A DNA stretch of 64,000 nucleotides from Magnolia sinica (lineage: Eukaryota > Streptophyta > Magnoliopsida > Magnoliales > Magnoliaceae), in the NCBI RefSeq assembly GCF_029962835.1, contig NC_080578.1, forward strand, positions 52,383,001-52,447,000, given 5' to 3'. A model generated the notes under the pieces. That model did not search any database. It had not been told where the DNA came from and saw nothing but the letters and a program-made list of their open reading frames with translations. Positions 36,557-63,005 of this stretch are shown here, piece after piece; the first letter of the stretch is position 1, and every line of letters starts with the position of its first letter. The position numbers were made by a program, and so were the translations under genes.

Positions 36557-36567
36557 AATAGAGGGGC

Positions 36568-38930: not shown

Positions 38931-40589
38931 CTGGTAAAGTAAAAAATAAATTATCACTACAAATAAATGGGATACATTATTTCAATACAAGACAACCAAA
39001 GCAAGTTCAGTACAAGGTTATGGTCCAAGCATCAAACATGAAGCGCATTAAGCACAAAAGGATTAAAAATACACCATGATGAGATGGAGGCAAGTGTCTT
39101 TACCGAAAAATCTGTTCAACCACATGAAGGGTTTGACACCAGGATTAATTTTCTAGAGAAGCTTTGATTTGTCTGCAGTGATATTACCAGCTAGATTTTA
39201 TGATCTATTATGGAAATCATTTTCCTACAAAAGATGTTGATTTGTTATGAGAATTTAGAGTAAAAAATGTCATATGTAATTCCATCTGCTAAAATTGAGT
39301 GGAAATAAAGAAGAAAAGCTGGAATAAAGAATAATATATGGTGCAATGATAATCTCAAACCAAACAAGAAGAGTATTGCCTGTTGAAATGTCCTCACTGT
39401 ATTGAAATAACCATGACAAAGTAGTGGAAGCAAACATCAATTCACTAAAAACATATGATAGAGAATCCCTCCTAATTGGGGATTCAAATTTGTAGGTATG
39501 ACTGATTGATGAGTCCATAGCCTTCTAAAATAAAAATAAAAATTGAATAGCTCCATAGTCTTCAAAATGATAACTTCTTATATAGTACCCATTTGGGAAT
39601 GAGATCCTGCAAAATTAGGCAGGCCCCATAACCTCCACATCAGATTTTGTCACACAAAGGCAGTTTCCCTGCATAATCACAATTATTTTAGGTTGGAAAA
39701 AGAAACTAAATGATTAAAAATTGTGATTGAAAGGAGAAAAGAGCTGCTAGCACCTTCAAATCTGACATGGAGGGCATGGGTTGTCAAAATTGTGATTAGA
39801 GCTTAATCCTGATTCTGCAGGATCCCTGTCCAAATGATAGAAGCATGATTTCACATGAGCCAAAACCATGTCATATAATATTCTTATAATAAGCAGCACC
39901 AAAGTCACAAGGGTGGGTATTTGGACTATTAGAACTTACATTAGACCCATTTTTTTGGCAAATGTGATGCTTGATGGTTGCCCCAATTGCTTGTTGTGGA
40001 ATCTTTGCAGAAGAAATAAAGGTAGTATATGAGCAAAGTTTTTTTCAGCATAGCATATCCAACCTGGATGCATAGAAAGATTATTAAATTGAACAACAGT
40101 TCATGAAATGACTATAGTATAACCACAGTGAAATGATAATCATGAAGCAAGTAACAATGTGTTGAACTTTTTTTTTTTTCAGAAAACCCATCTCAAATTC
40201 AACCGGACTAGCCATAGAAATCCTATAAGCTAAATATCCAGGAGATACTTTGTATTCTCAATATTTCTACAAACATCCAAATGAAACATAACACAATTGA
40301 AACAAAAGAGAAATGGTAAAGATGATAGACCTATAAGTTGCTTCCATTGATGTTGCATTGTGAATGCTAGCATGATAGTCCTCCTAAACATTGACCTGAA
40401 TAGTATGCAGTATTAAAGTTCAAAGATCAAACTAAAAGAGAGAATCTTGGTACAAAAAATAAAATAAAATGTACATTTCATGAGGAAGTCCTACAACAAA
40501 AATAAGAAGCATGAGAAAAAATTCCAAGTAAATCCAGTAGATTTTCAGGTGAAAGAGGAAGACAGAAGCATAGCTCTTCATAGTTTTAC

Positions 40590-40670
40590 CTCATTTAACT
40601 TTTCCCACACCAGACTAGGCTAATTTACATAACCTTCATCAATTATTAAGATATAGAGTTCACCATTGAA
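40590..40670 (-). pseudogene. Captured MINDY deubiquitinase exon (third piece)
   Basis: An 81-bp exon with acceptor tttgcag|TTC and donor GAG|GTAAAA. It encodes FNGELYILIIDEGYVN*PSL followed by VWEKLNE. MINDY/FAM63 (DUF544) proteins have a closely similar F-GELY-L-TDQGY-NQPDLVWEKLNE block here. The stop stands where the family has Gln (CAG to TAG). It lies downstream of 40838-40919 in the native order. Confidence 0.75.
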
Positions 40671-40837
40671 CTGCAAAACAGGGTAGGAAACAGTTTAATT
40701 TCCTGCAACATGACGCTAACTGAAAATGGGAATAGTAAAATTTTTGCAGTTGGTTTCTTAGAAGTGTCATATAGTATCTTTGATTCCTAAATGAATAGAA
40801 GAATCAATTGAAATAGTATGGTAGGGCTATAACTAAC

Positions 40838-40919
40838 CTTAAACATAGTACTGAAGTGATTGTTACGGAAAACAACACAAAGTTCGCATTCATGTAGACC
40901 CCCTTTTAGGCACGACAGG
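40838..40919 (-). pseudogene. Captured MINDY deubiquitinase exon (second piece)
   Basis: An 82-bp exon with acceptor ttttttcag|CC and donor AAG|GTTAGT. It encodes LSCLKGGLHECELCVVFRNN followed by HFSTMFK, matching the family block GLKERELCVFFRNNHFSTMFK. In MINDY enzymes the His of RNNHFST is the catalytic histidine, and it is kept. Order and spacing to the exons on both sides are native. Confidence 0.8.
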
Positions 40920-41267
40920 CTGAAAAAACAGGATCCTTGTAAAGTAACGCAATTCCAAATGGAGGCTCATGATTGGAAGAAAAAGGGGTGTTACAAGCCA
41001 AAAACGGTGTGCGTACCCATATGTGGTCAACTGGCTATTTCTCAAAAAGTTTTGAATCAACTCCTCTGAAAGTAGTGGAAAAAGAGTTTTTCCAATAGCT
41101 TAAACACAATGCAAAGGATACACTAGAAAAAAGCCCAACCATATAGAGATTTTTTATTTTTTATTACCATCTTTGGTTCTGTTAGTAAGCAGCCCATCAA
41201 AATTATCTTGCTCAACAAGAGCCATTTCACTTTGGTGCATGGGATTTCGATCTGGTTTCAGAATCAG

Positions 41268-42150
41268 TTAATCTCCTTCTAAGAAATTCACATGGTCTTT
41301 GGAAGTGTAGCATTTAGAAGAATCATCTTTGTCAGATAGAGGTAAAGGACCCGCTAAGAGAAGGTTGTTTTCATCTGAACTTGTAGATGGACTACATTTG
41401 TGAGATAGCATATCCAATGGCAAGGGTCTCTTAAGTTCCTCTTTCAAAGAATAACATGCATCAAAGCCAGCTCTGTCCATTGCGCCGGTTCTTGTTTTCT
41501 CAATGAAACCAACAGAGTTGGAACAATCTCTAGATTCATCACAGTTTGACTGATCAGGGTAACTTCCACTAGAAATCTTGGAAAGTGGAGTATCAGCCCC
41601 CCTAACAATGATTTCTGTAGATAATACATTGTTGTTACAATCACTGGATGCATTGCAGTCTCGTGAACCATTAAATTTTGGCTTAAGGGATCCTTGATAC
41701 TCATCATCACTGTGCCCCTGCAAGGAATCTTCAAGAACTCCAGATATCGAAATTTCAGTGTCATCAAATGACTCATCGAATCCATAATCTAGACAATCAT
41801 ATAATGCATCACGAGGATGTTTATAGTAATCTCTTGACAATTCCAGCACTCTATTGAGTTCCTCTTGTTCTTTTGTGTCTCCGCTTTTTGTGACTGAAAT
41901 TGGAGTAACATCAAACAATTTAGCTCCTAAAAAGCAAAGAGAATAAACTCCTAAAGTTACAGTTTCTGTCAAAGCAAAATCAAGGGAATCTTCTTCAAGA
42001 CCACCCTTACCAACCTTCCCCAGCTGCATTCCCTGTTTCAAGGGAAACAAGATGCTCGACAAGAGTATTATAGCACTTTGATCCAATCGTAGCTAAAAGA
42101 TCAGAATCCTGATTTGCATCAATATCAAATTTCCCAGTGAGCTTAACAAG
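41268..42150 (-). pseudogene. Captured MINDY deubiquitinase exon (first piece, frameshifted)
   Basis: Reading from about 42150, one frame gives DANQDSDLLATIGSKCYNTL then VEHLVSLETGNAAG. About 42040 the reading shifts to a long frame (to 41268) that continues GGLEEDSLDFALTETVTLGV, an acidic serine-rich middle part with KEQEELNRVLELSRDY, and a stop after FLEGD. This matches the part of MINDY/FAM63 proteins (Lys48-linked ubiquitin hydrolases) around GSKSYNTLVGELVALE and the low-complexity insert after it. The preceding catalytic-cysteine segment was not found. The 272-codon open stretch starts at a non-ATG codon and is an exon remnant, not a gene. Confidence 0.7.
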
Positions 42151-44287
42151 AAGTGATCAATATGCCAAACCAAAGAGAAGGAAAGTACATCCACTCAGGG
42201 CAACCAAAGGTCATGCTGAACAGTTATGGGAACTAGATATGTTGCATCAGCCACATTTCCAAGGATGTGACTTTATACAATCTAGCTCCAATTGCTGAGG
42301 GTTTAGATCACTCTCCTGGACAACATAATTGGGTTTGGATCACTCTCCTACTAAGCACTGCACTGAACTTGGTAGAACCTGAAAAATGCCAAATAATAAT
42401 AATGTTAAATTAAAAAAAAAAAAAATCAAACATGTACAATCCAACGTGCTCCCAATGGGTCGTCTCTTTATACAGAATTGATCACCTGTAACCTGTTGAA
42501 GCTTAACTTAAGCTACACCCCTTTTCACAAACATTTTTCCCTTGGAAAACCAAAATTTTGAATTCGTGAAAATTGGTTGTAGGTGATAAGCATCAAGACT
42601 AAAATATTGAAGGGAAATGAAACAAGGTGCAAGGCGTACGGACCTTGACAAGATACATAACCATCACCATGATACTAAACAGCGTCCACTACAGGGCATT
42701 GACATAATCTACCCCTGAGAGTGTCCTAAACAAACAGATATAATCGAAAGATCACTGAACAAATATCTATCACTGAACAAAGACTGCATGCCTATTTCCA
42801 TTATAGGCTTTATACACAGCTGTATGGATTTACAAGACATTAAGGTTTTGTTTTATCTTCCCAAATATACCAACAGCTACTGCTCTTGTCCCTTATAGCA
42901 TTTTGTTTTATCTTCCCAAATACACTAACGACAGCATCTGCCATTTCCCTGTGATATAGTATCATACCTTTATGAAAATGGAGTTCAAAACTAGGTGGAG
43001 GGAAAGAGGAAGAATAAAAACTAGGTGGAAAATATTGCAATTGAATTGGCTACCAAAAAGTAATTACACAAGTATTCCTACAACAAATATGTCCACTTTA
43101 TTTCGATCATTTTTCCATGAGCCTAATGCATTATTTAGGAACTCGGTGAGTCAACTCAGAACACGACTATGATAACTTGGATCAGCATGAAAGTGTTCCA
43201 GGTTCCTATATGACTCAGGTTGTTACAAGACTCGTTGGGTTTTCCCTAAACTTGCCAGAGTTTCAAATTGTGGACATGGTGAGTTTTGTATTACTTGATG
43301 GAGTTTAATAAAGTGAAAAGGTTTGATAAAAAAAAATGTAAAGGTTTGAACCCACCAACTCTAACATAAACAAAGACCTTGCCTGAGTTTTGTTACAAGC
43401 CTCACTAGGTTCTCGCTATACTTGTTGGTGTTTTGCACTAACTTGTTAGACTGACCTAGTTTTATGTTACTTGTGCGCATTTTACAGAGTGAAAAGCTAC
43501 TATGGTTTTTTTTTTTTTTTTTTTTTGCTTTTTTTAAAGAACTTATGAAGAAAGAAACTTGATTACAATGTTACTTCATAGCCCACCTAATGTGCCTGAG
43601 TTGCAGTACAACATACATTTTTAATACGGCTGGTGTTCATCCATATGTTAAATTGTATGGTGTTTGTTTAGTATCTTCATCATAGATGGTGTCATAACAC
43701 TATTCTGTGGGGAAAATAATGGTTTCTAATATCAAATTGTTACAAGTGTCTGACCTAAGTTTTGAATCTCTCTTATAAAGATGTAAGCTTTTCAAGGCGG
43801 GTTGGGTTGCATTATGAAGAAAAGCTTTTCAAACAGTTAAGCTAGCATGCTCCCTAGACAAGTACAGTCAAACACCAACATGATAAGTGTGCCACCTCAG
43901 CATGATAAAAGATGGGATGTGTGCAGGTAGAGAGCAGATGGTTTATACACTTGATTTTTGCTGGTAGTCAATACACATGATCATGGTTCTGTGTCCACCT
44001 AAATCTGAAAATCATGGGTAGGAAGCTTAATAGAAACATCAATATGATCAAATACATTAACTTAGCGATAGTGCAACTAAAATAGAATCGACTGAATAAG
44101 ATGTCAAAGCCAAACCATGAAATATAATTACATCATGTTTAGGCATGTACCCACATCGCTTGGTCCCCTTGATTCGTAGGAACCATTCCCAGATTCTAAG
44201 AACCACAACAGTTTTAGGTAATTGATATGGGCCAGAGAAAGGTCAACAAAATGAAAAGCATTCGGCCGTAGCACCATCAATACTCAC

Positions 44288-44465
44288 TTTCTTCCAGGCT
44301 CAGATCCCCCCAATCGTCTCTCAAGAATGGCGGCAGCCAGAAGATCGCCGACAGCAAGATGGCGACACCGAGGATGAGCATGGCCACACACCGGAACTCG
44401 ACAAATCTCCCGATCCGGCACCGTGACGGACCAGCATTTCCTTCGGAGAGTGAGAGGGAGATCAA
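44288..44465 (-). pseudogene. Captured first exon of a DUF7036-like membrane protein
   Basis: The frame encodes RIGRFVEFRC, then one strongly hydrophobic segment AMLILGVAILLSAIFWLPPF, then LRDDWGDLSLEE, and ends at a donor (GAAA|GTGAGTA, 44287). Plant DUF7036 proteins start with a short cytosolic tail and a very similar VAVLLSAVFWLPPF transmembrane helix, followed by a short acidic stretch and an intron. The function of the family is unknown to me. The 5' side merges into the pyrimidine-rich (minus sense) block, so the original start codon is not identified. It is the most upstream fragment in element A. Confidence 0.6.
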
Positions 44466-44660
44466 GGGAGAGGGAGATCGAGAGAGAGAGGGTTGAGATC
44501 GGAAGAGGGAGAGGGCAATCGAAGGAGATCAAGGGAGAGGGAGATCGAGAGAGAGAGAGGGTCGAGATCGGAAAAGGGAGAGGCAAATCGAGGGAGAGGG
44601 AGAGTGAGATGGAGATCGAGAGAGAGGGTTGAGATCGGGAGAGAGAGGGGAGATTGAGAT
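44445..44660. repeat. GA-rich low-complexity block near the right end of element A
   Basis: Units like gggagagggagatcgagagaga are repeated about eight times. A matching block lies at 55636-55880 at the corresponding place in element B. On the minus strand it is a CT-rich stretch directly upstream of the first captured exon. The long serine/proline/leucine frame across it is low complexity. Confidence 0.85.
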
Positions 44661-45002
44661 GAAGACGGCGGTCTGCGAAATGAAGTTTTAGGGCTTCTAG
44701 CGTAAGAAAATAGGTTAAATCAATCGGTAGTCTGCGGTACATATAGATCATCGTACCTCTTGGGCCTTGTGGGGTCCATTGAGAGGTACCTAACTGAATC
44801 CATTCCATCCATATGTTTTAAAATAAAATAATAAAACAACATAATAAAAAGTAATAAGATCCAATACCAATAAAACAGTGGATATAACAAAATAAGTAAC
44901 CTTGAATTGAGTAGGGTAGAGAACCGTTTCCAACCAAAAACGGCTTAAAGCCGTTTCTGAACCAAAGTTCTACCGTAACAGAACAACGTTTTTGGTGTAG
45001 TG

Positions 45003-45988
45003 GTGGCAACGGAATCCGCGTCCGCGTTCCCTGGCAACGGAATCCATCCATTGAAGAGTTTGGATAGTATAGAAATGCAAAATGTCGAATTCATAAAGGT
45101 GGAGACTCCCCTCACGTGGCATCTGACTTGAGAAAATACCTTAAGACTGTGTCCCACTATATTGTGTAAAATCCACTCCGCCCATCATGTGATAACCACT
45201 ACCTACATAAGATAAAGCCCAAATAAAACCTCAAATGTGTCACGCCAATCCGAATAATGTAAAACTGCTGATACGGTTGGCATCCCAGTGAGTTTTGTAT
45301 CAGGCCTATTTTTCTATCTTTTATTTATACCAGAAACTTTCACCTGATTAACTGTTTTGATGAAAGATAAATACCACGATGGCCTCACACAAACCTTGAC
45401 CTCCCAATCTCCCATCCCGTTGTTACATGCAGTGTGGTTCATCTGAGCTGTGGATCTAAATTAATTTCGGCATTAGGGCCTAGCATCGAGGTAGAACCTG
45501 ATAGATGGAATGGATTTTAAATATACAACATGGTGGGCTCCGTAGACTGCTTTACGCACTGCGTGGAACAACACTTATTCTATAGCGTTCCGGTCCGATG
45601 AGAAATTTTGATACAGAATGAAATGCATGAAGGTATGCATGTGAAATGCATGTGAGCGCGTGGCCTTTCTCATCCCCAATAGGGGATAAATAAATAACCA
45701 ACTTTGACACCCTTGGCAGATTGGGATGGTGGACGAAACTTCACATGACATATTATAGCATTAATTACTCCGTACAAATCGTGGGGTCCTAAATTAGATA
45801 TACCGTAATGAAAATTAAACTGATTCAATCTGCACCATAGTCTGATCATTAACAATTCACAAGTGTTCGTTGTATATCCTACGCCATGAAATTATCTGTT
45901 ATAAAAAAAATCGAACTAGTCCCTCACACGGAAAGAACAATTATTTAAATATGAGAGAATTCTGAATAGAGGTGGTTGAATGTACATG
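45003..45988. other. DNA between the two CACTA elements; one foldback-like segment
   Basis: 45145-45575 has the features of the window-wide MITE family (atccactccgcccatc near one end, gatagatggaatggatttta and caacatggtgggctcc near the other). The rest is A/T-rich and shows no gene, terminal repeat or other structure I can name. Confidence 0.5.
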
Positions 45989-46423
45989 CACTACACCAAA
46001 ATCGTCATTTCGGAACGGTTTAAAACCATTTCTAAATGAAGCGTCGTAAGAAAACAGGAACTGTTTAGAACCATTTTGGGTACCGTTTCAATTTTCATAA
46101 ATGAAATTTTGGGAACGGTTTTAAACCGTTCTGGTGCCAATAGTCACATTTAAGGCACAAAATTTTAGAAACGTCTTTGAACGCCTATTAATGTTGCCAA
46201 CGGTCGAAATTTTAAGAACAATTTTAAACCCTGATAAACACACAAAATTTAGGGTCAAGGGAAATAAATTAACAGAAGTTTATTACATTGCATCAAAATA
46301 GAGATTAATCCAAATAAAAACATAAGAAAATAATGTGCTTGAAGATGTTTCATTGCAAAATCAAATTTACAAAATAATCTACACTTTAAATTATAGCTTT
46401 GCGGAGATGACATGTGAAGCTCC

Positions 46424-46476
46424 CTCAATGCATTGATCATCATCTCCTAGACCCACAGGAACAAGGCGCTTCCCAC
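46424..46476 (-). pseudogene. Captured NADPH-cytochrome P450 reductase exon piece
   Basis: After an acceptor (attcttag|GT) the frame encodes GGKRLVPVGLGDDDQCIE, the strongly conserved FMN-domain segment of plant cytochrome P450 reductase (GxKRLVPVGLGDDDQCIEDDF). Similarity stops after CIE and no donor is seen there. The frame runs on for nine residues (GASHVISAKL) to a stop. Confidence 0.75.
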
Positions 46477-46681
46477 CTAAGAATATAAATAACTATAGAA
46501 ATTGAAGTTAATTGGTAATTGAGTGAAAAAGAAAAGTCTCCCCACTAATGATCAAGATTGAAGAATGGGAGCATGCTACAAAAGACTAAAAACACAAACA
46601 CACATCTGGGACCCCTCAATAAGCTTGAAATGTTTCCTAAGACATTGTTATTGGTTGTTAAAGGAAAAAAAGAAAACTCAC

Positions 46682-46820
46682 CATTATGGAAGATAAAGCA
46701 ATTTGGGAGCTCAAACCATCTGATTTGAAGCTCATCTTTTGCATATCGTGGGAGTACGCCAAAGCGAGCTTTCTTTGCTGCATCAAATGAGAAGATTAGC
46801 TTCCCATCCTTCACCATTTC
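46682..46820 (-). pseudogene. Captured carotenoid cleavage dioxygenase 1 exon
   Basis: A 139-bp exon with acceptor (attttcag|GAA) and donor (AATG|GTGAGT). It encodes [20 protein letters not shown], then [20 protein letters not shown] and CFIFHN. This is the segment of plant CCD1 (and related 9-cis-epoxycarotenoid dioxygenases) around [22 protein letters not shown]. The frame is fully open. FHN should be followed by A-NAWEE in a next exon, which is not present nearby. In the intact enzyme a His of this region helps hold the active-site iron. Confidence 0.85.
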
Positions 46821-47482
46821 CTGAAAATAGGAGTAAAGCAAGCAAAGAATTCTTGTTAATGTAATGGAACTAGCTTCACAACTATTGATTGCTCCAAACA
46901 TTAACCAAAGGCATATACTGCACCTATACATCATGTTTATCAAAATATCACAAATATCACAAATCATATAAGATTCCAAACAATTTAGAATCAATCAATC
47001 GCTGTGAAATGCCAAGTTATTTACCCGAGGTGCACACGATCCATATAGAGAAAATGTCTTGAATGTCTATTGATATTTGATAGTGGTGGTGCAACTAAAG
47101 TGAATTTAGTATCATTTCATATTTTTAATTCCTGTCCATTTAGTTTGCTTTGGGTACTAGTTCAGGTACCACCAATGGTTACAAAAGAAGATGCAACAGA
47201 GTCTAAAGTACTTGAATCTAAGGCCACCACCTAATCGATTTCCATGTAATGGATCAATCAACTATGAATCTCATTTTATAGATGGTCTTGGATGTTAAAA
47301 GAATGTAAGTGCCTATTGTAGTTCTCCACTCCAAGGGTTGAGAAACCTTTGACAATGAATTGCTGAAAAACCAAATGGCAAAAGCCTAAAAGCAGCAGAG
47401 CAAGGAAACAAACAGCAGCAAAGCATGTGATTGCCAAGAAATCCTGCCTAACCTGCCTAACCAATGGCGCAAAAGAAGTTAC

Positions 47483-47547
47483 CTGCATTCCTACGTAAAG
47501 CATAAGGGAGTTTATTAGGGGCACGTTGTATCGAGTCCCAGCCATAA
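47483..47547 (-). pseudogene. Captured CNOT1 exon
   Basis: The frame encodes AGTRYNVPLINSLMLYVGMQ and ends at a donor (CAG|GTAACT). CCR4-NOT complex subunit 1 has AGTRYNVPLINSLVLYVGMQ, a single difference in 20 residues. The 5' border is not certain (possibly after AG at about 47548). No other CNOT1 exon was found. Confidence 0.8.
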
Positions 47548-48881
47548 TCCTCATTGTTAATCCAACGTAGAACTACTAGATAGAGATTGTCAGTTCTACT
47601 TAAATGCCAAAAGGAATCCCTCAAAACTCGTAGTCTTTCCTTGCCTCTAAATGCTACAATTGAAATCTTGTAGGAAAAAAAATCACATTACATCTACTAG
47701 ATAAAGATTGTAAGTTGTACTGCAACACAAGCCAACAGCCAAATGATCAATGCCATCAGATTCACAAGTAGCTTGGGAGTTAATGTGGCCCCCGTTAGCA
47801 TTTAAATGAAAGACAAAATTGCTTAGGATACATTATTCAGCCAAATCATAGATCGACTAGTCATAAACAAGTATTTAGACCACCATATTGAAATGAGGTC
47901 GCCAGATGTACAAAAATGGGGAAAATTGACATCTAAAGGAGTTGCCTTTCCTCAGACCTTAACCGTTAAACAATCTATATGAAGACATTGAGAAGCTCAA
48001 GGGTTTCTGCAAAGGCATCAGGTACCTTCCAAGGGATGCCAATCCTCTTGCCGGCCCTAAAAGAACACCATCGAGGATGTATCCCTTGATGATTAAACCA
48101 TAACCTAGTGAGACAGAAAGGTGCATCTCAAACCCATCTAAAGTGACTTAATGGAGAACTAGAACTAAATCATGAGTACAATTTGATGCATTGGTCTCCT
48201 GAGGACTTCGAAACTAAACTACAGGAAACAATGAAGCAGACATTTCAAAAATCCATCAAGGCAGCAAGTGAATATGGGTTTCTAAAAGAGAACCTCGAGG
48301 CTTTGACACATGGGGCCAATATCTGTGCCTTCCTAAATCTGGCTCAAGCTATGACTAATCAAGGATGCGTTTGAGGTTCATCGCTGAGAAAGTTTCTCAT
48401 AACAAAAGATCATGTTTTAGTGCTTGGAGTTTGCACAAAATTGCTGGAAATTTTGGTTGAGTTGCCATAAATTTGATTCTAGTGCAGAAATTAGGTTTAA
48501 TTGCCTAGAAATTTGTGAATAATTGCTGATTCTCTAACTATTTTTTGTGATTTACAAAAAATGGTGTTGCAAATTCATCGTGGACCTTGTAATGTACCGT
48601 TGGAACTGGAGTCTGGAGATGGCAATCAATCAGAATCATTTAAAACCTAGACTGGCTGCATAAAATAAACTCAAGAAAGAAGTACACTAAATCACTAATA
48701 CCTGAGATGATCTATTCACCCCTAACTTCTAACCAAGTTAGCATTAGATTAGATCATCATTCCTCTAATGATTAATCATAAATTTTGATCTTAAACTTCC
48801 ATTAAACAAAAATCACAACCACACAATAGTCATGCAGCATAAAAACACGAACTAAGAAAGTACAAAAGGAGCCAAGACTAC

Positions 48882-48945
48882 CTCAAGAAACCGATTCCGG
48901 TGCTGGGAATTTTGCAGATCAAGTTGGGTTAAATCTTTCACATTT
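48882..48945 (-). pseudogene. Captured CCAR1/DBC1-like exon 2
   Basis: A 64-bp exon with acceptor (tttgacag|AAA) and donor (GAG|GTAGTC). Its first base completes the Arg codon split with the exon at 49099-49303. It encodes NVKDLTQLDLQNSQHRNRFLE, where the family has KD-TQLDLQNC-HWNRFLE, so the conserved Cys and Trp are changed to Ser and Arg. Confidence 0.8.
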
Positions 48946-49098
48946 CTGTCAAAGAAATCAACTCTAGATTTTAGTGAACAAAATACCATCTCTATATTTT
49001 GAAATTCAAGAACCTAAAGACAAATTTATTATGGGTTCTATTTTTTATTTTTATTTTTTGGTTGGATTAGAAGATACAAAAATACTAGCAGTAAGCAC

Positions 49099-49303
49099 CT
49101 AAGAGCTGACTGAACTAAGGAGGAATCATCAACCAAGGGATCTCCACCATCTAGAGCTGCATTCCATGGGCCTCCAATTGCCATGAAGGAACGATCTTTC
49201 TTGAGAATTGCAAACATGAGGATATTATTAAGATGGGGTATCCTATCATCGTAGAACACAGCTCCTCCAGAGCATGGCTACTGATACCACTCATCAAGAT
49301 CAC
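49099..49303 (-). pseudogene. Captured CCAR1/DBC1-like exon 1
   Basis: A 205-bp exon with acceptor (catttcag|GTG) and donor (TTAG|GTGCTT). It begins VILMSGISSHALEEL, then after a frameshift reads DDRIPHLNNILMFAILKKDR and GGPWNAALDGGDPLVDDSSL followed by VQSALR. It matches the central domain of plant CCAR1-like proteins (relatives of SHORT ROOT IN SALT MEDIUM 1), which are large nuclear proteins linked to transcription or RNA processing. The donor phase joins exactly to 48882-48945 after an intron of 153 bp. The frameshift near 49255 disables it. Confidence 0.85.
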
Positions 49304-49325
49304 CTGAAATGAAAAAATATATATA

Positions 49326-49398
49326 CACTACACCAAAAGTTGCAGGTGATCTTGATACCACTCATCAAGATCACCTGCAACTTACGCCTTGGTGTAAG
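49326..49398. repeat. 73-bp hairpin with CACTACACCAA-type ends
   Basis: The 18-bp arms GTTGCAGGTGATCTTGAT (49339-49356) and their exact complement (49364-49381) enclose a 7-base loop. The whole is framed by cactacaccaaaa on the left and ttggtgtaag on the right. The arms copy the acceptor and first bases of the adjacent CCAR1-like exon (gcaggtgatcttgat). Confidence 0.8.
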
Positions 49399-50380
49399 AA
49401 TCAGGTCACATGCAAGTCAGGTGAGCCAACTGTATACAAACGAAATGGACAGTGAGCAATTAAAAGAGATGTATGACATATCGGCTTGAGCAGATGGCCT
49501 GAATTTTGCACAAGGGAAGCTATGTAGTGGCTTGATGATGCATGTATAAACTCTATCATCAAACACCTCAAATGCGCCGAGAATCATCGCTAATAAAATC
49601 AAGACATTACCAATTAAATCTCTAGTTACAACGAATCCATGGATGGGATGGTTAGGATCATCTAATCAAAGTGATTCTTAAACTGTTACAATCAATCCGT
49701 GATGGTCCCTGCCTAACTCATGGTTCAAATTCTTGATTGGACCTACTTCCATAAACAAGATTAACCGTCCATCTTTCGTAGGCCATGATTATCTGGTTAG
49801 AATCATCTGATCACTAAGATTTTCGCGATGTGGCTATCTGAATCAACTTGTAGAATCAAAACTTTGAAAAAACAATACAATATCATGACAGATCTACTCA
49901 AAGTGGGTTTAGATGGAATGATGACTCAACGTGTATCATCATAGAGCTGGTTGTTTGGGATAAGTACATTGAGGTAGGCTATACGAAACTATTTTTGCAC
50001 AATACAATAAGCATTTTAGCTTGCAAGTATTATGAACATGTTATATTCTAAAATTTAAGGTGGAACTCTTATCAAGTAAGCCACATATATTTGACATATA
50101 TTTGTTGAATCTAGGCTGTTGGACTTCTCTTTGTTGTTATTTTTTTTTTCATCCAGTTTGTTGGCTTTCAGCTACCTGCTCACCTTCCAAGCTGAGATGG
50201 GCCTGACCCATTCCAAATCCCACTCAAGAGCCTTGGCCTGAACTAGATGAGCACTTTTTTTTCTTTTTTTAAAATTACCAAGTGAGGTTTACAAGGCAAG
50301 AGTAAGACATTCAGGGATCCAACCTGGTTCATTCATGCACGTTACAGTCTCTGTCGTCTCTATCTGGAGAACAGTGATAT

Positions 50381-50427
<47 letters not shown>

Positions 50428-50428
50428 C
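50381..50428. repeat. TA/GA microsatellite at the PP2A exon border
   Basis: About twelve TA units followed by about twelve GA units, adjoining the donor of the PP2A exon. On the minus strand it is the beginning of the putative intron. Confidence 0.9.
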
Positions 50429-50524
50429 CTCTTGCTCGGAGAGGGGCTTGCGCTGGATGAGCTGAGAAATCTGCCCATCGAGCTGGCTATGGGAGTTCGA
50501 AGAAGGGAATAGATCCGCACTCAT
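50429..50524 (-). pseudogene. Captured first exon of a PP2A catalytic subunit
   Basis: The exon has an ATG at 50524-50522 and encodes MSADLFPSSNSHSQLDGQIS followed by QLIQRKPLSEQE, then a possible donor (GAG|GTCTCT). The LD-QI-QL---KPLSE-(E/Q)V motif is the start of plant protein phosphatase 2A catalytic subunits (the subgroup with an extended N-terminus). The metal-binding GDIHGQ segment would be in a later exon and is absent. This is the only captured fragment with its own start codon in a clean frame, and it is the first recognised coding exon on the upstream side of element B. Confidence 0.7.
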
Positions 50525-51052
50525 CTTCTTCTTCTTCCTTTATAATATAACATCACATCAGAGTTGGGAAAAAATTGTAATATGTATAATAAGAACCCTG
50601 TTTTACAAGGGTTCCTTTATAAGGAACACCACTGTCAGTTTGATGATGCACAGAAAACATCACATTAGAGTTGGAATAAAATGTAAAATAGGTGCACCTT
50701 ATAAGAAAGCAAGTAGCTTCTGCTTCCGTAGCTTTAGCTTAACAGTACTTATCGAAACAAGACAATCCACACTATTTTGAAATATGGAGCATATGCAAAG
50801 TTACCAATAAGAAAATACATGGAAGCAGCTAGCTCAATCCTGATAAGGTAAGACATTAAAACAAAGTTTTTATTTATGAAAGAAGATTGCATTTTTCTGA
50901 TCATCAAGATAATTATCTTGATGATTTGAATAAAAAATGGGAAAATGAATTATTGTGGAAGAAAAGGACACAACCTCATTCATGAGACTCTTATTTACTC
51001 CAAAATTAGTAGCAGGTTCAATGTTCAAATCATTAGATGAATTTTTTTGTTA

Positions 51053-51084
51053 CTATTGGGCTTCTGCATTCACCTGGCTAGCAT
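51053..51084 (-). pseudogene. Short terminal exon, unrecognised gene
   Basis: After an acceptor (aatgcag|AT) it encodes DASQVNAEAQ and a TAG. It pairs with the exon at 51200-51300 through a GT-AG intron. Confidence 0.35.
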
Positions 51085-51199
51085 CTGCATTATAAATAAT
51101 AAAAAAAATTAATTTCGAGAACAAAGAGAGGAACTAAATATCAATAAACTTGGAATGCAGTAAGGGTACATGCTGAATAGTGATGTCATGAGCACCTAC

Positions 51200-51300
51200 A
51201 TCTTTCGCTCCAGCTGACATCAACGCATGCTGAGCAGACTGTTGATGCATGGAATTTTGCTGTAGTGAAGAAGATGTGATAGCAGGGAGATCCACAGGTG
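51200..51300 (-). pseudogene. Glutamine/serine-rich exon, unrecognised gene
   Basis: The frame encodes PVDLPAITSSSLQQNSMHQQ and SAQHALMSAGAKD, then a donor (GAT|GTAGGT). Composition suggests the C-terminal region of a regulatory or RNA-related nuclear protein, but I cannot identify it. The 5' border is uncertain. Confidence 0.35.
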
Positions 51301-51537
51301 AAAAATGAATTAAATCCTACTAATACATAAATGGAAAACAATATCATACTCGAAATCAATCACTTTAAGATAGATATGGACACATATTTCGTGAATATGG
51401 TTCAAATAAGGTTTTTCCTGACCTTCACTACAACAGGGGGTTCCACCTACTGCAGTTCTGGGGCTGCACCTACTACAGTTCAGCTGAATATATGCTCGAA
51501 CTTGGAAACAGATTGACTACTCCCCCTACCACCAGCC

Positions 51538-54500
51538 TGTAACGCCCTGAAATTCGGGGGTCGAGCATAACTCAGCTCCCGAGTTCCAAAACGTCACTTA
51601 TGCAGCATATGTAATGATGGATGTATGTTGTCTATATAAGTGCATAAAACATGGAATAGATTAAGCCAAACTACAAACATAATCCAGTGATAAGTGAAAA
51701 ACGCAAGCGGAAGACTTAAAGAAATATATGTGTACATGTGTAAGTCCCTGTGGTATGTATGCTCTGCCAGGTCATAATACAAGTGTTTATCTTCAAATTA
51801 CAAGTATCAAAATGAAGTTATCAATCCCAAAAGAAAACCAAGAATCCTCGTCGATCAGGACATGGCTCACATGAACCCGCCTGAGAATTGCATAATAAAA
51901 AACGCGACCTCATCATCCTCGAACTCCTGCTCTGCCTTAGGGGTCGCGTCAACATCTGCATCTAAGACAGACTCTGGTTGGTGTTGAAACACTATCCCAG
52001 AATGTGGGAGTGAGTGATCAACTCAGTGGAACTATACAGTAAAAGTTAATATGATATCAAATCAATCAAGCAGTAACGATAAGGCAATACAATTAAACAA
52101 GTCTAAAGTACTCTTGTTAATGTAAGGATGTATGTATAAATGATGCATGCCCTCACCTGCATTCCTTCAGCGTCTTCATCGTACGTTATGCATGACAAAC
52201 TCCCACAGTACCAACAACTACTACGCACATGCAATGCGGTGCATGAACATGATTACTAAGTTGTTATTAGTCTTTTTCATACAACAAGTTTAGGAAGTTA
52301 AGGTACCTTCCTCATATCAATTTCCACATAGTGATCCATTCTAGGGTCGCCAGTCCTAGGCCATCTCATACGATCATATGGTTCTACATCGCTGAAAAGG
52401 GCTCGTCACCAATCAATGCACGCCTATCATACCTCAGTTACTACACTAAGGCTTGTCACCTTAATGTAGTATCGCGGTATGATCAAGGTCACTATAAAGG
52501 GCTCGTCACCAATCAATGTAGGCCGATAGCGCGAATATAGTGTCCCATACCACTATAATTGGCTCACGAGTCTGGTGTGCTCACTGCTCACTACAGGGAG
52601 GCTCGTCACCCCAGCGTAGGCCGATAGCTCGACCACGGTGTCCCATATCACCATGTCCGACTCATGAGTCTTAGTGGATCAAGGTACAACGGTTAACGGG
52701 ATTTCATCGGTAATTTTGGTACCCTAGATTCAAACAATAGCGTCCATACATAGTGAACATACATCGGATAATCGGGTTACTTGACGAACTCGACTAGCAC
52801 GAGCGCACATTTGGTTGAACGACATAAAGTGTGCAAACACTCCGTGTGGCCAAACCACTGTCGACAACTCTAATACGACTCGGGTTCGTCAAACACGTCC
52901 TTCATGGCAAAAGCAACCTCAGCCACGAACTCAAGGTCGATTACCGATTTCCTGGACTATTCCATAGTCCCAAACATATTCCATTACAACAGATATTCAT
53001 ATCAACACTTTAGAACAGTAATGGAACAACAACCCAGATCATACAGTATGTGAGCATTTGAAGAATATCAATTTAACATGGATTTCAACATAAGTAGTGC
53101 TTGAACTTAAAGAACAAAGAATGTAAATTGAATGCAGGAACTCATACATGCCAATATGAGAGTTGAGAATCTCTTCTCAACGCCCGTAAATAGGATAATA
53201 CACTACACTTTAGACCATTCAGACATTTCTACAAATACTTAGACTACATATTCCAACATATATGACGTATGTTGGTGAGAACACACATTTAGACAATTCC
53301 TTTTGCCAAGGAGTTGCCACACGTACAACTAGCACAAGAACATAACAAATAATCATGGCGAACACATACTCATATTTTATACGTATATGATACTTTCTAC
53401 ATACACAAGGAATACACAATTCTTAACACATCTCATATATGTCAGGAACGTAATATAAACATAACATTTGGCATGTGAAATTACACCCACAACAATAATA
53501 AATTATTATCTGACATTGAAAGCCTTGAAAACCATAACCTATATGAATATAATCCGCACCTTAAACTAGAAAAAGTGCACAAAACTGATTCAGACGATAT
53601 GTCTTCGTCAATGGCGACCAGATAACCTAAGGCAAAAATAGAAATGAACTACATCAACATATAGACTATTCTAAGCTCTAAAACAGATTAGGGTTTGATT
53701 AACTTACCCAAGGATGAACTTAGAATCGCCGGAATAACGATTCAAAAGTGATGGTTTAAGGATGCAAAGCAACAAGAAAGAATCTCAAATGATTCACCAA
53801 CTTCTCTCTCACTTTCTCTCTCTTTTCCGTCTCTCTCTTTTAGCTAGGGTTTAGGAAATTCGTATGGCATAGAGAGTGAGGATTTTAAGGTCTTTATATA
53901 GGCCTAACATTGATGAAAATAGCCCCAAGGCCAAGGTATACTTAGGTTATAACCAAATCAGGCTTCTCTCGATCCAACGGAGCGCTTCCGGTGGTCCTTT
54001 TTCCACGTGCGGTCGGACTTAAGCTCACTGACCATGGATGTAGGTCAGACTGAGTTTTCGTACCGATTGAATTTATAGATCAACCGTGGCGGACCAATCT
54101 CAATTCAATGGTCACCGAAGCTCGATCAGGTCCACAAGCACTATGACATGCTTGGGCCATCTTCCCTGATCCGAGGGTGAAATTGGGTCAGAATCCAATG
54201 GTCAGATTGCTTAAAATCGTCGCCCAAGTGACACGACTCAGATTTCATAAAATCATATTTAATTTCTCACTGTTCTCACCCTCTTTACTCCGGACTCAAA
54301 TAAATCGACACAGGACATCATCTGGACTTAATTTTTGAGATGATGGTCAAGCCCAACAAGGTGACCATAACTGTCTAAGATCATCGCTGTCGGACTTTCA
54401 ACACGCGGTCCAGGTCCGATCCAAAGATTCTAAATATTCCCGAGAGCAACTGGATTTAGCGTTGAATCCCAGATTTCAGAGTAACATAGCGCTAACGATT

Positions 54501-54650
54501 CTACAGGTTTTGAGTCCTGCGGATCAAATTTAAAGTGATTGATGATAATTTCACAAGCAATTGAGTTTAGCAATAATTAACCCACACATAACTTCTCAAG
54601 GATGTGAGGTAGTACTCGAGTCTTAGCACGAAATTTTCCTGGTCATTACA
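51538..54650 (-). mobile_element. Solo gypsy LTR, family G1 (3.1 kb)
   Basis: It starts TGTAACGCCCTGAAATTC and ends cctggtcattaca in plus reading, with a perfect 5-bp duplication CAGCC at 51533-51537 and 54651-54655. It is colinear with 59917-63005, so it has the same minus orientation. No interior follows on either side, hence a solo LTR. The small open frames inside are by-products. Confidence 0.9.
52385..52680. repeat. Short tandem-like repeats in the G1 LTR
   Basis: Units containing ggctcgtcacc...tgtaggccgatagc...gtgtcccataccac recur three to four times. The same block is at 60775-61060, and a diverged one at 58840-59110. Confidence 0.75.
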
Positions 54651-55635
54651 CAGCCATTGGCTGGTGTTCGGTTCTCTGTGGGCCCCACCATGATGTATGT
54701 GTTTCATCCATGCCGTCCACCTATTTTTATAAATCATTTTATGATATTATACAAAAAACAAGGTATATCCCAATCTTAAGTAGACCACATTACAGGAAAC
54801 AATGTTGAATGAACGTCGAGCATTAAAAGCTTTTTGGGGGCCATAAAAGTATTGGATCAAGCTGATCTTTGTTTTTTTCCCTTCATCTGGGTATTTATGA
54901 CCTGATCAACAGATTGGATGTCAGATAAACAGTACAGTGGGCCTTAGGAGGATTTAAATGATGGATATCTAATCATTATTGTTTCATGTGGTGTGGTCCA
55001 CCTAAGATTTATATCCCTATTATTTTTAGTTTATAGACCTAAAATTATCTTTAAAAATGGATGAACGGAATGGATGAAACACATACATCATGGTTGGGCC
55101 CATAGAACACTGACCACCAGCCACGGGGCTGGTGTCAGGGGGAGTAGCCAATCTGTTTCCCTTGAACTTGCACCTACTACAGTACGTTGACTTTGACAAG
55201 TTGACGAGTTAAAAGACTATTTTGCCCTTGCTGCTTCTGGAATCAAAATAAAAGTGTATAGGCAAAACGGTCATTTCATTCGTAACAAAAATGACCATTT
55301 TACCCTAAAAAATCTTCCTCCCACTAAGTAGACCATACGGACACTCACCTAAACTTCCCAAAATGCCCTTCAGCTTAGCAAAAAGGCCTACAAGAGGAGC
55401 ATTGCAGGCAATGGATGGCTCCGTCTATTCGTAGTTCCACTATTGATCGACGTAGTCATCTTGCCGATTGGGCCTACCTACAAGGGCCCCCATGATCACA
55501 TTGGGATTGTTACCATTGATGTGGAACCGTTTCTCGAAACCTTCGAGGCAATCAACGTTCGAAGGTAATAACGATTTCGTGTTGATGGAAGCTCATCAGT
55601 GGCGAACCTGAAGCGGGTAGCTCCTCGGTGAATGC

Positions 55636-55880
55636 TGCAGGGAGAGAGAGAGAGATCGAGAGAGGGAGGGAGAGTGAGAGGGAGATCGAGAGCGAGGGTT
55701 GAGATCAGAAGAGGGAGATCAAGAGAGAGGGTTGAGATCGGGTGAGGGAGATCGAAAGAGAGGGAGATCAAGAGAGAGGGTTGAGATTGGGAGAGGGAAA
55801 TCGAATGAGAGGGAGAGGGAGAGGGAGATCGGGAGAGGGAGATTGAGAGAGGGAGATGGAGATCGGGAGAGGGAGATCGT
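55636..55880. repeat. GA-rich low-complexity block near the right end of element B
   Basis: Repeated gggagatcgagagagaggg units, matching 44445-44660 in element A. It is CT-rich on the minus strand, the likely upstream side of the captured exons. 55170-55635 shows no gene I can name. Confidence 0.85.
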
Positions 55881-56232
55881 GTTTCGGCATTTTGGATGTT
55901 CCAGAGGGTTTAAGGCGTTTTGACGATGAAAATAATCCCGTAGTCAGCAGCAGATTTACATAAATGTGACTCTCAGGCCATGTGGGGTCCACTTAGAGGG
56001 TTCCAATAGAATCCATTCCGTCTATCTGTTTCAAAATAATATAATAAACCATAATAATAAGAAATAAGAAGATCCAACACTCAATCGGGACACACCAAGA
56101 AAACAGCGAAACTAACAATGTATAAAAGCAACTATTCTAGTATGGTGCACTACCGTTTCAAATCAGAAACGGCTCAAAGCCATTTCTGAACCAAAATGCC
56201 AACCGTACTAGTTCAGCGATTTTAGTGTAGTG

Positions 56233-56860
56233 ATGATAGGTTTTTGAGTCGAGCTGTTCAGAGCACAAAGTTTGAAAACTGAATGACCAACTCACCCAAC
56301 AAAGAGATGAGATCCTAAGTTGAGCCGTCTAAGGAAAAAGATTGGTGGTGAAGATTTGTCTCACAAGGAACATCTATAACATGGATAGAGGACTTGTAAG
56401 TCAAAGAGCTCGAGATCCAAGCTCTCTCGCTTTTCGAGTTGACCCGATCGACCACCGCCAATATGGTGCAAGTAACTGGGAGGGGATTACACCCCATATT
56501 TGAAAAAAGAGGACCCAACCTGATCTCGACTAAAATTTATGCCGACTGAGGTGCATTTTATAACACTTTCAGAAGAAATTTCCTACACAAATAGGGACTC
56601 CAATGTATTCCATTAAGACACAACTGTTTCAGAATCGCCCAAGGACCCTATAAATACAACTACCCTAAACAAGAAGAGCTAAGCTCAAAACGCACAATCT
56701 CTTCCTTGATCCAAGTTTATCAACCTAACTTAAGCATCGAAGGGTCCATTGTCGCTAGCTGACACCCCCATTATCCACATTTCCCTTGTCCTTGCAAGTC
56801 CATCGGTAGGCATACATTCATGATCGACTGCATTTGTTGGCCCAAAATTTGCCAACAACA
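56233..56860 (+). mobile_element. Tat-like gypsy 5' LTR, 3' portion
   Basis: The end tttgccaacaaca at 56860 is followed by a Tat/Athila-style primer site and gag. The upstream limit is unknown: CACTA element B ends at 56232 and may be inserted in this LTR (its target duplication is at 56233-56235). A TATA-like tataaatac lies at 56651-56659. Confidence 0.6.
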
Positions 56861-57995: not shown

Positions 57996-59916
57996 TGTAA
58001 TGCCCTAAAAATCAGGGGTCGAGCAGGAGCCCAACTCTCGAGTTCCAACGCATTACTTATGCAATATAGATAATGATGATTAAATATTGTCTATATTAGC
58101 ACATTAAACATGAATGAGATTACACTAGATCAGCATATCATACTCCAGGGACAATTAAATTACGCAAGTAAAAGACTGTGATAAGTATATATAACATATA
58201 AGTGATTGTAAGTCCCCAGAGCATGAGCATGTCACCAGGTTAAATAATTACAAGTATAATTCCAAAATTCACAAAATGATACAATGTCTATCCAACTACT
58301 TTGTAACCCTATAATCCCGTCAACGCAACTGCGGGTCTACAAAGACCTCCAGAGAGTTACATGTAGGAGAACTCCTCGTCATCATAAAAGTCAAGCTCCG
58401 CTTCGTAAGCATCGACACCATCTACAACTAAACTAGAGTCTAGTTGGTGTTTTAAAACACCATCCTAGAGTGGGAGTAAGTGATCAACTCATTAGAGCTA
58501 TAAGGAAAATGTTAACATGTTATCAATTTAGTCAACCAGTAATGATAAAGCAGTACAACATTCATGTCCTAAGTACTCTTGTTAATATAGGAGTGATATG
58601 CTATAATGATGCATGCCCTTGGCTGCACTCCCTCAGCGACATCATCTCATGGTCGCGCATAGCAAACTCCCTAAACGTGCGCTTCTTCGCGAAAGCACAT
58701 GCAATGTGGTTCATGATCATGTTAGCCAATATTTAATTAGGTTTATTCATGCAGCAGATTTGGGCCCAAACGATGATCCATCTAGGGTTGTTAATCTTAG
58801 TTCATCACATACGATAGGCAAGTTCCATGTCGCTATGGAGAGGCCCGTCTCCTCAGCGTAGACCTAGTTTATACTTGAGGTCACTATGGAAAGGCTCGTC
58901 ACCTTAGCGTAGTCTTAGTGTATACTCGAGGTCACTACGAGAGGCTCGTCACCTGATCATAGGCCAATAACTCGAATACATTGTCCCATACCACCATATC
59001 AGCTCACGAGTTTGGGTTACTCACTGGTCACTACGAGGAGGCTCGTCACCCTAGCGTAGGCCGACAACTCGACCACGGTGTCCCATACTACCATGCCTGG
59101 CTCATGAATCTTGGCGGATGTGGTACCAAGGTTAAACAGGCTTTTCACTGGTAAGTTAGTACCTTAGATTCAAGCAGTAGCGTTCATACGTGGTGAACAT
59201 ATATTAGGTCAATCGGGTTACTTGACAAGCTCAACTAGTACAAGCGCACGTTAAATTAATCGTCATGGACCGTGTATGCACTCCTCGTGGCCTAACCACT
59301 GTCAATAATCACCGTATGACTCAGATTCATCGAACATATCCGTCGTGGCTAAAACAGTTCGGCCACCGATCGTAAACCTTTACCGATTGCCTGGACTACA
59401 TCGTAGCCCTAATCACAGCCCAAACAATAACATTCACATGTGATAGTCAAAGACAGCATGTGACGGCTAATCTAAATATAAATCTCACTTGAGCATTTCA
59501 ACAAACAAATAGTACACATGTTTTCATACATATGCATTTCATCCATAAATCACATAGTGGTAATATAGGTTACATAAAGGAAACTGTATCTATAGATAAG
59601 GGAATTTAGAATCCTATCTCAACGCCCTTATTAAGTACATTTCAACAAGCATTTTATTAAAAACTTAGACTACACATATCACATACATGTAATATATTAC
59701 TTAAAACACATATTATAGCAAATCCTTCCACATACGAGTTGCCACACGTACAACAATCATGTATTATCAATAAGTAAACATAGCAAGAACAAATCATAAT
59801 TCCGTATTTATTCAAACATTTCAATAAACACATAGAATGTATTATCTTCAACATATTTATATATATGTGTAATACATGGAAACCATCGCATCTAAGCACA
59901 TGTGATAGCAATCAAG
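57996..59916 (-). mobile_element. Gypsy LTR (G1-related), interrupted
   Basis: It begins TGTAATGCCCTAAAAATC after ccgag (57991-57995, the likely target duplication). It shares the order of blocks of the G1 LTRs (gggtcgagca, acatgcaatg, ggctcgtcacc repeats, catcgtagccc) at lower similarity. It stops at 59916 because the next G1 LTR is inserted there; the rest must lie beyond the right edge of the window. Confidence 0.75.
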
Positions 59917-62900
59917 TGTAACGCCCTGAAATTCGGGGGTCGAGCATAACTCAGCTCCCGAGTTTCAAAACATCACTTATGCAACATATGGAATGATGGA
60001 TGTATGTTGTCTGTATGAGTGCATAATACATGGAATAGATTAAGCCAAACTGTAATCATAATTCAGGGATAAGTGAAAGTCACAAGTGGAAAACTTAAAG
60101 AAATAAATGTGTACATGTACAAGTCCCTGTGATATGTATGCTCTGCCAGGTCATAATTACAAGTGTTTGTCTTCAAAATACAAGTATCAAAATGAAATTA
60201 TCTATTACAAAAGAAAACTCAGAATCCCTGTAGATCAGGACACGACTCACATGAACCCGCCTAAGAACTGCATAAAAGAAAACGCGTCCTCGTCATCCTC
60301 ATACTCCTGCTTTGCCTCAAGGGTAGCATCATCATCTGCATCTAAGACAGAGTCTAGTTGGTGTTAAAACACTGTCCCAGAATGTGGGAGTGAGTGATAA
60401 ACTTAGTGGAACTACACAGTAAAAGTTAACATGTTATCAAATCAATCAAGCAGTAATGATAAGGCAATACAATCAAACACACCCTAATTACTCTTGTTAA
60501 TGTAAGGATATATGTAGAAATGATGCATGCTCTCCCCTGCACTCCCTTAGCGTCTTCATCTTACGATACGCATGACAACCTACGGCAGTGCCAACGACGC
60601 CAACGTACATGCAATGCAGTGCATGAACATGATTACCAAGTTATTATTAGTCCTTTTCATACAGCAGGATTTGGGAAGCTAAGGTACCTTCCTTATATCG
60701 ATTCCCAAATAGTGATCCATTCTAGGGTTGTCAGTCCTAGACAATCTCATACGATCATATGGTTCTAGGTCGATGCAAAGGGCTCGTCACCAATCAATGC
60801 ATGCCTATCACACCTCAGTTACTACCCTAAGGCTCGTCGCCTCAATGCAGTATCAAGGTATGCTCGAGGTCACTACAAAGGGCTCGTCACCAATCAATGT
60901 AGGCCGACAGCAGGAATATAGTGTCCCATACCACCATAATCGGCTCACGAGTCTGTTGTGCTCACTGGTCACTACGGGGAGGTTCGTCACCCCAGCGTAG
61001 GCCAACAGCTCGACCGCGGTGTCCCATACCACCATACCCGGCTCATGAGTCTTAGCGGATCAAAGTACAACGGTTAACGGGATTTCATCAGTAATTTTGG
61101 TACCCTAGATTCAAACAAAAGCGTTCATACATGGTACACATCCACCGGGACAATCGGGTTACTTGACGAACTCGACTTGCATGAGCGCACGTTGAGTTAA
61201 ACGACATAGAGTGCGCAAACACTCCGTGTGGCCAAACCACTACCGTCAACCTTAATACGACTCGGGTTCATCAAACACGTCCTATGTGGTGAAAACAACC
61301 TCGGCCACGAACTCAAGGTTTGTTACCGATTTCCTAGACTATTGCATAGTCCCAAACATCTTCAATCATAACAGATATTCATACTAATAATTTAGAATAG
61401 TAATAGATCAACAATTCTAATCATATAGTATGTGAGCATTTAATGAATATCAACTTAACATGGATTTACACATAAGTAGTGCTTGAATTTAAACAACAAA
61501 GAATGTAAATTGCATGTAGGAAATCATACACACCAATAGGATAGTTGGGAATCTCTTCTCAACGTCCATAAACAGGACAACATATTACACACTTGATCAT
61601 TCAGACATTTCTACAAACACTTAGACTACATATTCCAACATACATGACATATGTTGGTGATAACACACATTTGGACAATTCCTTTTGCTAAGGAGTTGAC
61701 ACACATACAACTAGCACAAATACACGACAATTAATCATGGCAAACACATGTTCGTATTTCATACATATACGATACTTTTCACATATACATAGAATACACG
61801 AATCTCAATATAGCTCATATATATCAGGAACGTAAAATGAACATCACATTTGGCATGTGCAATTACACCCACAATGATAATAAACCATTATCTGACATTG
61901 AAAGCCTTGAAAACCATAACCTATACGAATATAGTCTGCACCTTAAACAAAAAAAAACGCAACAGATCTGATTCAGATGATAAGTCTTCGTCAACGGCGA
62001 TTAGAAAACCTATGGCATGAATAAAATGAACTACATCAACACTTAGACTATTCTAAGCTCCAAAACAGACTAGGGTTTGATTGACTTACCCAAGAATGAA
62101 CTCAGAATTGCCGGAATAACGATTCAGAAGTGATGGTTTAGAGACGTAGAATAACAGGAAAGAATCTCAAGATGAGTCACCGTCTCCCTCACCTTCTCTC
62201 TCTTTTCCTCTCTCGCTCTCTGTTAGGGTTTAGGAAATTCGTATGGAATTGAGAGTGAGGGTTTTAAGGTCTTTATATAGGCTTAAAATTGATGAAAATA
62301 GCCCCAGGGCCAAGGTATACTTAGGTTATAACCAAATCAGGTTTATATCAGTCCAACGGAGCGCTTCTGGTGGTCCCTTTTCCACGTGCAGTCAGACTTA
62401 AACTCACTGACCATGGATCTAGGTCAGGCTGAGTTTTTATATCGATCGGATTTGCAGATTAACCGTGGCAGACCAATGTCAATTCAACGATCACTGAAAC
62501 TCATGCCTGGGCCATCTTCCTTGATCCGAGGGTAAATTTGGGTCAGAATCAAACAATCAGATTGCTTAAATTCGTCGCGCAAGCGACACTACTCAGATTT
62601 CATAAATTCATATTTAATTTCTCACCTTTCTCACCCTCTTTACCTCAGACTCAAGGAAATCGATTCAGGACATCATTTGGACTTGATTTTTGAGGTGATG
62701 GTCAAGCCCAACAAGGTGATCATAATTGTCTAAGATCATCACTATCGGACTTTCGACGCGCGGTCTGGGTCCGATACAAAGTTTATAAGTACTCCCGAGA
62801 GCATCTGGATTTAGCGTTGAATCCTAGATTTCAGGGTAACATAGCACTAACGATTCTACAAGTTTTGAGTCTTGTAGATCAAATTTAAAGTGATTGGTGC

Positions 62901-63005
62901 TAATTTCACAAGCAATTGAGTTTAACTCTAATTAACCCACATTTAACTTATAAGGAATTTGAGGTAGTACTCGGGTCTTTGCATGAAATTTTTCGAGTCA
63001 TTACA
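59917..63005 (-). mobile_element. 3' LTR of a G1 gypsy element
   Basis: 3089 bp from TGTAACGCCCTGAAATTC to cgagtcattaca, colinear with 51538-54650. It is followed on the high-coordinate side by a polypurine tract and integrase, so it is the 3' LTR of a minus-strand element that leaves the window. The preceding ATCAA (59912-59916) is the expected target duplication. Confidence 0.9.

Follow-up and report, generated by a model that had tools for sequence, protein, structure and literature searches.

A predicted Pack-CACTA transposon carrying exon pieces of several unrelated host genes in Magnolia sinica

Results

The ends of E2

We analyzed a stretch of 64,000 nucleotides from Magnolia sinica (NCBI RefSeq assembly GCF_029962835.1, contig NC_080578.1, positions 52,383,001 to 52,447,000 of the forward strand), here called the window, which contains at positions 45989-56232 an element that we call E2. 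Judged from its sequence, E2 is very probably a non-autonomous Pack-CACTA (transduplicating CACTA) transposon. Its cargo appears to derive from at least four different host genes, and probably from six or seven.

The element extends from one terminal inverted repeat (TIR) to the other. The left TIR (45989-46004, plus strand) is exact, CACTACACCAAAATCG, and the right TIR (56217-56232, minus strand) has one mismatch, CACTACACTAAAATCG, so that 15 of the 16 bp agree. The element is flanked by two identical 3-bp copies of the triplet ATG (45986-45988 and 56233-56235), the expected footprint of a target-site duplication; duplications of this length are typical of En/Spm and Tgm. Matches to the E2 ends with at most two mismatches are expected only 0.02 times in shuffled windows, and 200 dinucleotide shuffles gave six single end matches and not one pair of ends with equal 3-bp flanks. 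The whole element measures 10244 bp, of which 6587 bp remain once the interval 51504-55160, occupied by nested insertions, is subtracted. The clear CACTA ends, the ATG duplication and the figure of about 6.6 kb of element DNA had all been proposed in a first-pass annotation of the window, and they were borne out here.

Inside the TIRs lie subterminal regions of two kinds. The left one (45996-46172) is built of GGAACGGTTTAAAACC-like repeats, and the right terminal region (55658-56232) has a GA-rich subterminal part. Both recur in a second element, E1, which lies upstream in the window in the same orientation: the left region of E2 is 82% identical to 37220-37394, and the right one 70% identical to 44446-45002. 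With up to three mismatches allowed, the GGAACGGTTTAAAACC-like unit gives 11 matches in the window, every one near the left end of either E1 or E2, and the right ends of both elements lack it. The first-pass annotation had named the absence of the terminal repeats from other copies as an observation that would speak against it; instead the ends recur in E1, around a different cargo.

E2 thus combines the features by which CACTA (En/Spm) elements are recognized, namely TIRs that start with CACTA, a 3-bp duplication, subterminal repeats and a second copy of the ends. It also holds host coding DNA (CPR, CCD1, GDH and CCAR1/DBC1-like pieces, described below) inside those ends, as Pack-CACTA and other Pack-TYPE elements do. 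No transposase family was matched at E <= 0.01 among 113 stop-free segments of E2 and 102 of E1. Since a missing transposase is expected for a non-autonomous member, this is no bar to membership in CACTA (En/Spm). Two points weigh against the assignment. The duplication has 3 bp, whereas 5-nt duplications are stated for the rice and maize CACTA set of Gisby and Catoni 2022 (PMC8903248). In addition, E1 is the single other copy of the E2 ends in the window; its left tip is damaged, and no duplication can be read there.

The same ends bear on another explanation, in which native genes or an old segmental mosaic left these exons behind and CACTA ends (for example, one from each of two different elements) came to stand around them by accident. 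Two elements of one family do adjoin here, so mixed pairing of ends is conceivable, and with only 3 bp the two ATG copies would agree by chance about once in 64 cases. Against this, E2 has the left and the right end types of its family in the correct order, the triplets on its two flanks are equal, and E1 shows the same pair of end types.

Host-gene pieces inside E2

The interior of E2 (46200-51503 and 55161-55960) was scanned against Pfam as 113 stop-free segments, taken from 27 amino acids (aa) on the minus strand and from 36 aa on the plus strand. Four families were found at E <= 0.01: DBC1, ELFV dehydrogenase, RPE65 and GH9. In a control stretch of the window (30000-36600), none of 93 segments, taken from 30 aa on the minus strand and from 40 aa on the plus strand, matched Pfam at that threshold. 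Matches to TAFH, STAT1_TAZ2bind, DUF5426, UvrB_inter, CrtO, Comm and CvfB_WH lay above about E 0.02 and were dropped. In a protein search the best 120 of 1882 matches were nearly all histone H2A or glutamate dehydrogenase, which made it uninformative for PP2A, CPR, CNOT1 and CCAR1/DBC1. Rfam gave no match anywhere in the window at gathering scores.

Four host genes could be assigned firmly by similarity. The first from the left is NADPH-cytochrome P450 reductase (CPR), represented by an exon piece on the minus strand (46424-46476) that matches PDB entry 7sux at 3.7e-6, begins at an AG acceptor and is truncated within the exon after GAG. The second is carotenoid cleavage dioxygenase 1 (CCD1), with one exon on the minus strand (46682-46820) that has both splice sites and an open frame and matches PF03055 at 5.6e-8 and a carotenoid 9,10-dioxygenase at 1.6e-21. 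The third is NADP-glutamate dehydrogenase (NADP-GDH), whose last exon up to the stop codon lies at 48153-48374 on the plus strand, opposite to the other pieces. Its frame is open, it is truncated near the exon start, it matches PF00208 at 9.6e-9 and a PDB entry, and it is 89% identical over 73 aa to the protein of Tasmannia lanceolata; among the matches listed, Tasmannia is the best named relative, with Typha, which is a monocot, and then Aristolochia ranking next. The fourth is a CCAR1/DBC1-like gene, with an exon on the minus strand (49099-49303) that matches PF14443 at 2.2e-14 and has AG and GT edges, the frame being lost inside it.

The remaining pieces are assigned with less strength. On the minus strand at 48882-48945, with AG and GT edges, lies a candidate for a second CCAR1/DBC1-like exon, probable in a weak sense: its PF14443 match (0.015) is below the cut-off and two unrelated families come close at 0.02 and 0.035, yet its PF14443 profile positions continue those of the exon at 49099-49303. 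The piece at 47483-47549 (minus strand), which has the donor GTAACT and an uncertain 5' boundary, is probably from CNOT1. Queried as the exon only, it gave E 0.022 with all three reported matches to CNOT1; the longer frame gave E 0.27.

A candidate first exon of the PP2A catalytic subunit with a GT donor (50429-50524, minus strand) is also probable. It is identical at 17 of 32 positions to a presumed PP2A sequence (E 7e-8, for that single comparison). Database searches, Pfam included, gave no PP2A match for this piece. Pfam could barely detect it, because the N-terminal model covers that presumed PP2A sequence from residue 25 on only, and there with a match below the cut-off. Lastly, a stretch within 55443-55592 (minus strand) is a weak and possible match to a GH9 endoglucanase, with PF00759 at 6.3e-4, below the Pfam cut-off, and PDB endoglucanases at E 0.47.

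These assignments support the first-pass reading of E2, a CACTA element whose interior is packed with exons from host genes that are unrelated to one another. Of the five sources named there, CCD1, the CCAR1/DBC1-like gene and CPR are firm, while CNOT1 and PP2A are only probable. That list was also incomplete, having missed the firm NADP-GDH last exon as well as the weak GH9 piece and the sibling element E1.

The nature of the cargo further argues against native remnants enclosed by accident: pieces of genes with unrelated functions, one of them on the other strand, within 6.6 kb do not look like a native locus, and together with the order of the ends this makes that explanation extremely improbable. 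The unrelated functions and the opposite strand likewise speak against colinearity of the exons with a single native host locus, the other observation that the first-pass annotation had named as contrary to its reading. The cargo could also have been gathered by a Helitron or a Pack-MULE that now sits inside a CACTA element, both element types being carriers of host gene fragments according to the literature. Here the cargo fills nearly the whole interior: CPR starts some 250 bp within the left-end region, and at the other side the right-end region is adjoined by the weak GH9 piece. Among 13 inverted pairs of at least 25 bp in 36500-56700, the three with both arms in E2 are two MITE-like ones (see below) and one palindrome (49324-49396), a scan that would miss shorter or more diverged ends, no search aimed at Helitron ends having been made. 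We regard a Helitron or Pack-MULE origin of the cargo as highly improbable.

Splice sites, frames and strand of the cargo

Canonical splice sites were present at one edge or more in six of the seven placed E2 pieces and at both edges in three of them. AG and GT stand at the edges of CCD1 and of both CCAR1/DBC1-like exons; CPR has the acceptor only, CNOT1 and the PP2A candidate the donor only, and GDH neither. Note that the edges were set with splice sites in view; for CCD1, the alignment to a full-length protein stops at the same bases as the placed exon edges. The splice sites that flank the exons, in CCD1 on both sides, indicate copying from genomic DNA.

When the pieces were spliced in silico, CNOT1, CCD1 and CPR shared a single open frame, by hand count some 87 codons long. 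This frame and the canonical sites at many exon edges speak for a working chimeric gene whose spliced exons would encode a new protein under selection. The whole joined transcript contains stops, however, and the frame of the CCAR1/DBC1-like exon is lost. Three of the four gene-to-gene junctions are in phase where one in three is expected at each, a result with a chance probability of 0.11, and these junctions give no evidence of selection. The GDH piece is antisense, and E2 later received a MITE-like element as well as an LTR-like insert. A working chimeric gene is therefore very unlikely, and E2 is most likely decaying cargo that makes no useful protein.

Over both elements, the cargo lies on the sense strand in nine of ten sources when weak and probable ones are counted (two-sided p 0.021) and in six of seven firm ones (p 0.125). 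This bias is not firm, since segments on the minus strand were scanned to shorter lengths (27 or 30 aa) than those on the plus strand (36 or 40 aa).

The sibling element E1 and the route of capture

E1 occupies about 37213-45002 and ends 986 bp upstream of E2. Its right TIR (44987-45002) reads CACTACACCAAAAACG; at its left end the first TIR bases are replaced beside a MITE-like repeat. In a BLASTN comparison of E1 with E2 only the ends matched (left, 82% over 177 aligned positions; right, 70% over 596), together with repeats within the ends.

The E1 cargo is different. A scan of its 102 stop-free segments gave four families at E <= 0.01, two of which hit the same histone piece; a third, Pox_E10 (E 0.005), was dropped as chance level for 102 segments. 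All E1 pieces described here lie on the minus strand. The histone piece (37684-37962) is a predicted last exon of histone H2A that matches PF16211 at 1.8e-15 and has lost one residue compared with a Gossypium H2A. It is followed by a phosphoglycerate-mutase-like exon (38793-38903), with identities of 97% over 31 or so aa to Magnolia sinica and 89% over 37 aa; Magnolia sinica is its best match (5.3e-11), with Asimina second. Magnolia and Asimina are magnoliids, as are Tasmannia and Aristolochia among the GDH relatives, which points to a host that is probably a magnoliid. Further along lies a MINDY deubiquitinase piece (40790-40966; PF04424, 8.2e-8; PDB MINDY-2, 2.3e-4). An open stretch at 41271-42156 is a candidate for upstream exons and probably belongs to the same MINDY gene, its position and order fitting MINDY. 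Its 274-aa open part (41271-42092) found no match in Pfam, the protein database or PDB.

How could E2 have gathered its cargo? Presumably in several steps, through fusion of neighbouring copies in the same orientation or through abortive gap repair, and a CACTA transposase encoded elsewhere in the genome would move it. In the fusion model, attributed to Catoni and colleagues in PMC8903248 and found also in a 2026 review, same-orientation neighbours fuse and so capture the DNA between them. The spacing and shared orientation of E1 and E2 are the arrangement from which this model starts. We give tandem fusion an even chance of being the main capture route; the 2026 review allows that another, undiscovered way of capture may exist for unlinked genes.

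The CCAR1/DBC1-like exon at 49099-49303 is bordered by a palindrome (49324-49396), within a region (49282-49397) in which 28 bp of the exon start are directly repeated and a 33-bp inverted repeat holds an exact internal CACTACACCAAAA at 49326. This internal copy may be the fossil tip of a TIR or a product of template switching, and about ten of its 13 bases, judged by eye, could equally stem from the inverted exon copy.

Taken at its strongest, the pair would be the fusion model of gene capture caught in the act. E1 and E2, with their different cargo, could then move as one composite from the left end of E1 to the right end of E2, the CACTACACCAAAA at 49326 would be a fossil tip left by a fusion that took place earlier, and the strand bias would reflect capture or retention favouring chains of exons open to splicing from a single end. 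We consider this stronger proposal unlikely.

Later insertions and other repeats in the window

The interval 51504-55160 of E2 is a nested MITE-like (miniature inverted-repeat transposable element) element, with a 34-bp terminal inverted repeat of 91% identity and inner arms at 54658-54843 and 54938-55123. It is split by an LTR-like (long terminal repeat) insert of 3113 bp on the plus strand (51538-54650), which runs from TG to CA, has the duplication CAGCC and is 86% identical to 59917-63005. We take this insert to be a solo LTR, because the largest open reading frame overlapping 51504-55160 has just 69 codons. Both insertions would have joined E2 later.

Whole or partial copies of the LTR-like insert were seen at 59917-63005 (86%), 57996-59398 (69%) and 1-1371 (80%). 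Relatives of the nested MITE-like element lie at 28240-31221 and 36787-37207, and one of them lies directly against the left tip of E1, which is damaged. Elsewhere in the window, all on the minus strand, 21415-21993, 23017-23337 and 63379-63795 hold pieces of Copia-type Pol_BBD and gag, together with one that matches, slightly below the Pfam cut-off, the SH3-like domain found in Tf2-1-type elements. A 219-aa stretch at 19847-20503 (minus strand) matches PF20167, a putative plant transposon protein, weakly (0.0011, below the cut-off).

Discussion

Pack-CACTA elements of Arabidopsis, maize and rice were reportedly described by Catoni in 2019. They resemble E2 in being non-autonomous CACTA elements with host coding DNA, for which PMC8903248 proposes same-orientation neighbours as the source of capture. 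The same paper states that the Pack-CACTA elements of maize contain the most distinct loci among Pack-TYPE elements, and gives the Arabidopsis ends as CACTACAA, against CACTACACC... in E2.

A close known system is soybean Tgm-Express1 (Zabala and Vodkin 2007, PMC1947982), a CACTA element of 5.7 kb with fragments of five unrelated genes, comprising exons and introns, which are spliced into chimeric transcripts. Both elements hold unrelated host-gene fragments with exons and kept splice sites. They differ in that Tgm-Express1 sits within a known gene, in one of its introns, and has demonstrated chimeric transcripts; E2 has another host, other genes and later nested insertions. By analogy with Tgm-Express1, E2 exons could be spliced into chimeric RNAs if transcription started at its right end or read through into it from a host gene. 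In grapevine, PMC2528002 reports gene pieces in all superfamilies of class II elements. The Cactavine elements described in it resemble E2 in having cellular gene pieces inside CACTA, one case being antisense, and each of those consulted is described with one source gene, against several in E2.

The first-pass annotation had called this particular mix of sources undescribed. Among the papers listed in our literature search there was no match to it, and none carrying the 13-base E2 end sequence. Likewise, no fragment-rich Pack-CACTA pair from magnoliids was among the matches listed there; for Magnolia ashei, one paper mentions a domain arrangement of a CACTA transposase. Nevertheless the novelty is weak, because such elements differ in cargo anyway, and the soybean element with five fragments was in print by 2007. 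E2 is a further Pack-CACTA of the Tgm-Express1 type and a good fresh example, not a new phenomenon.

The pair lends itself naturally to testing how CACTA elements gather genes. Composites running from the left end of E1 to the right end of E2, if they occur at other places in the genome, would demonstrate the fusion model directly. Chimeric transcripts are easy to seek because splice sites are retained, and the captured exons could otherwise be annotated as false genes.

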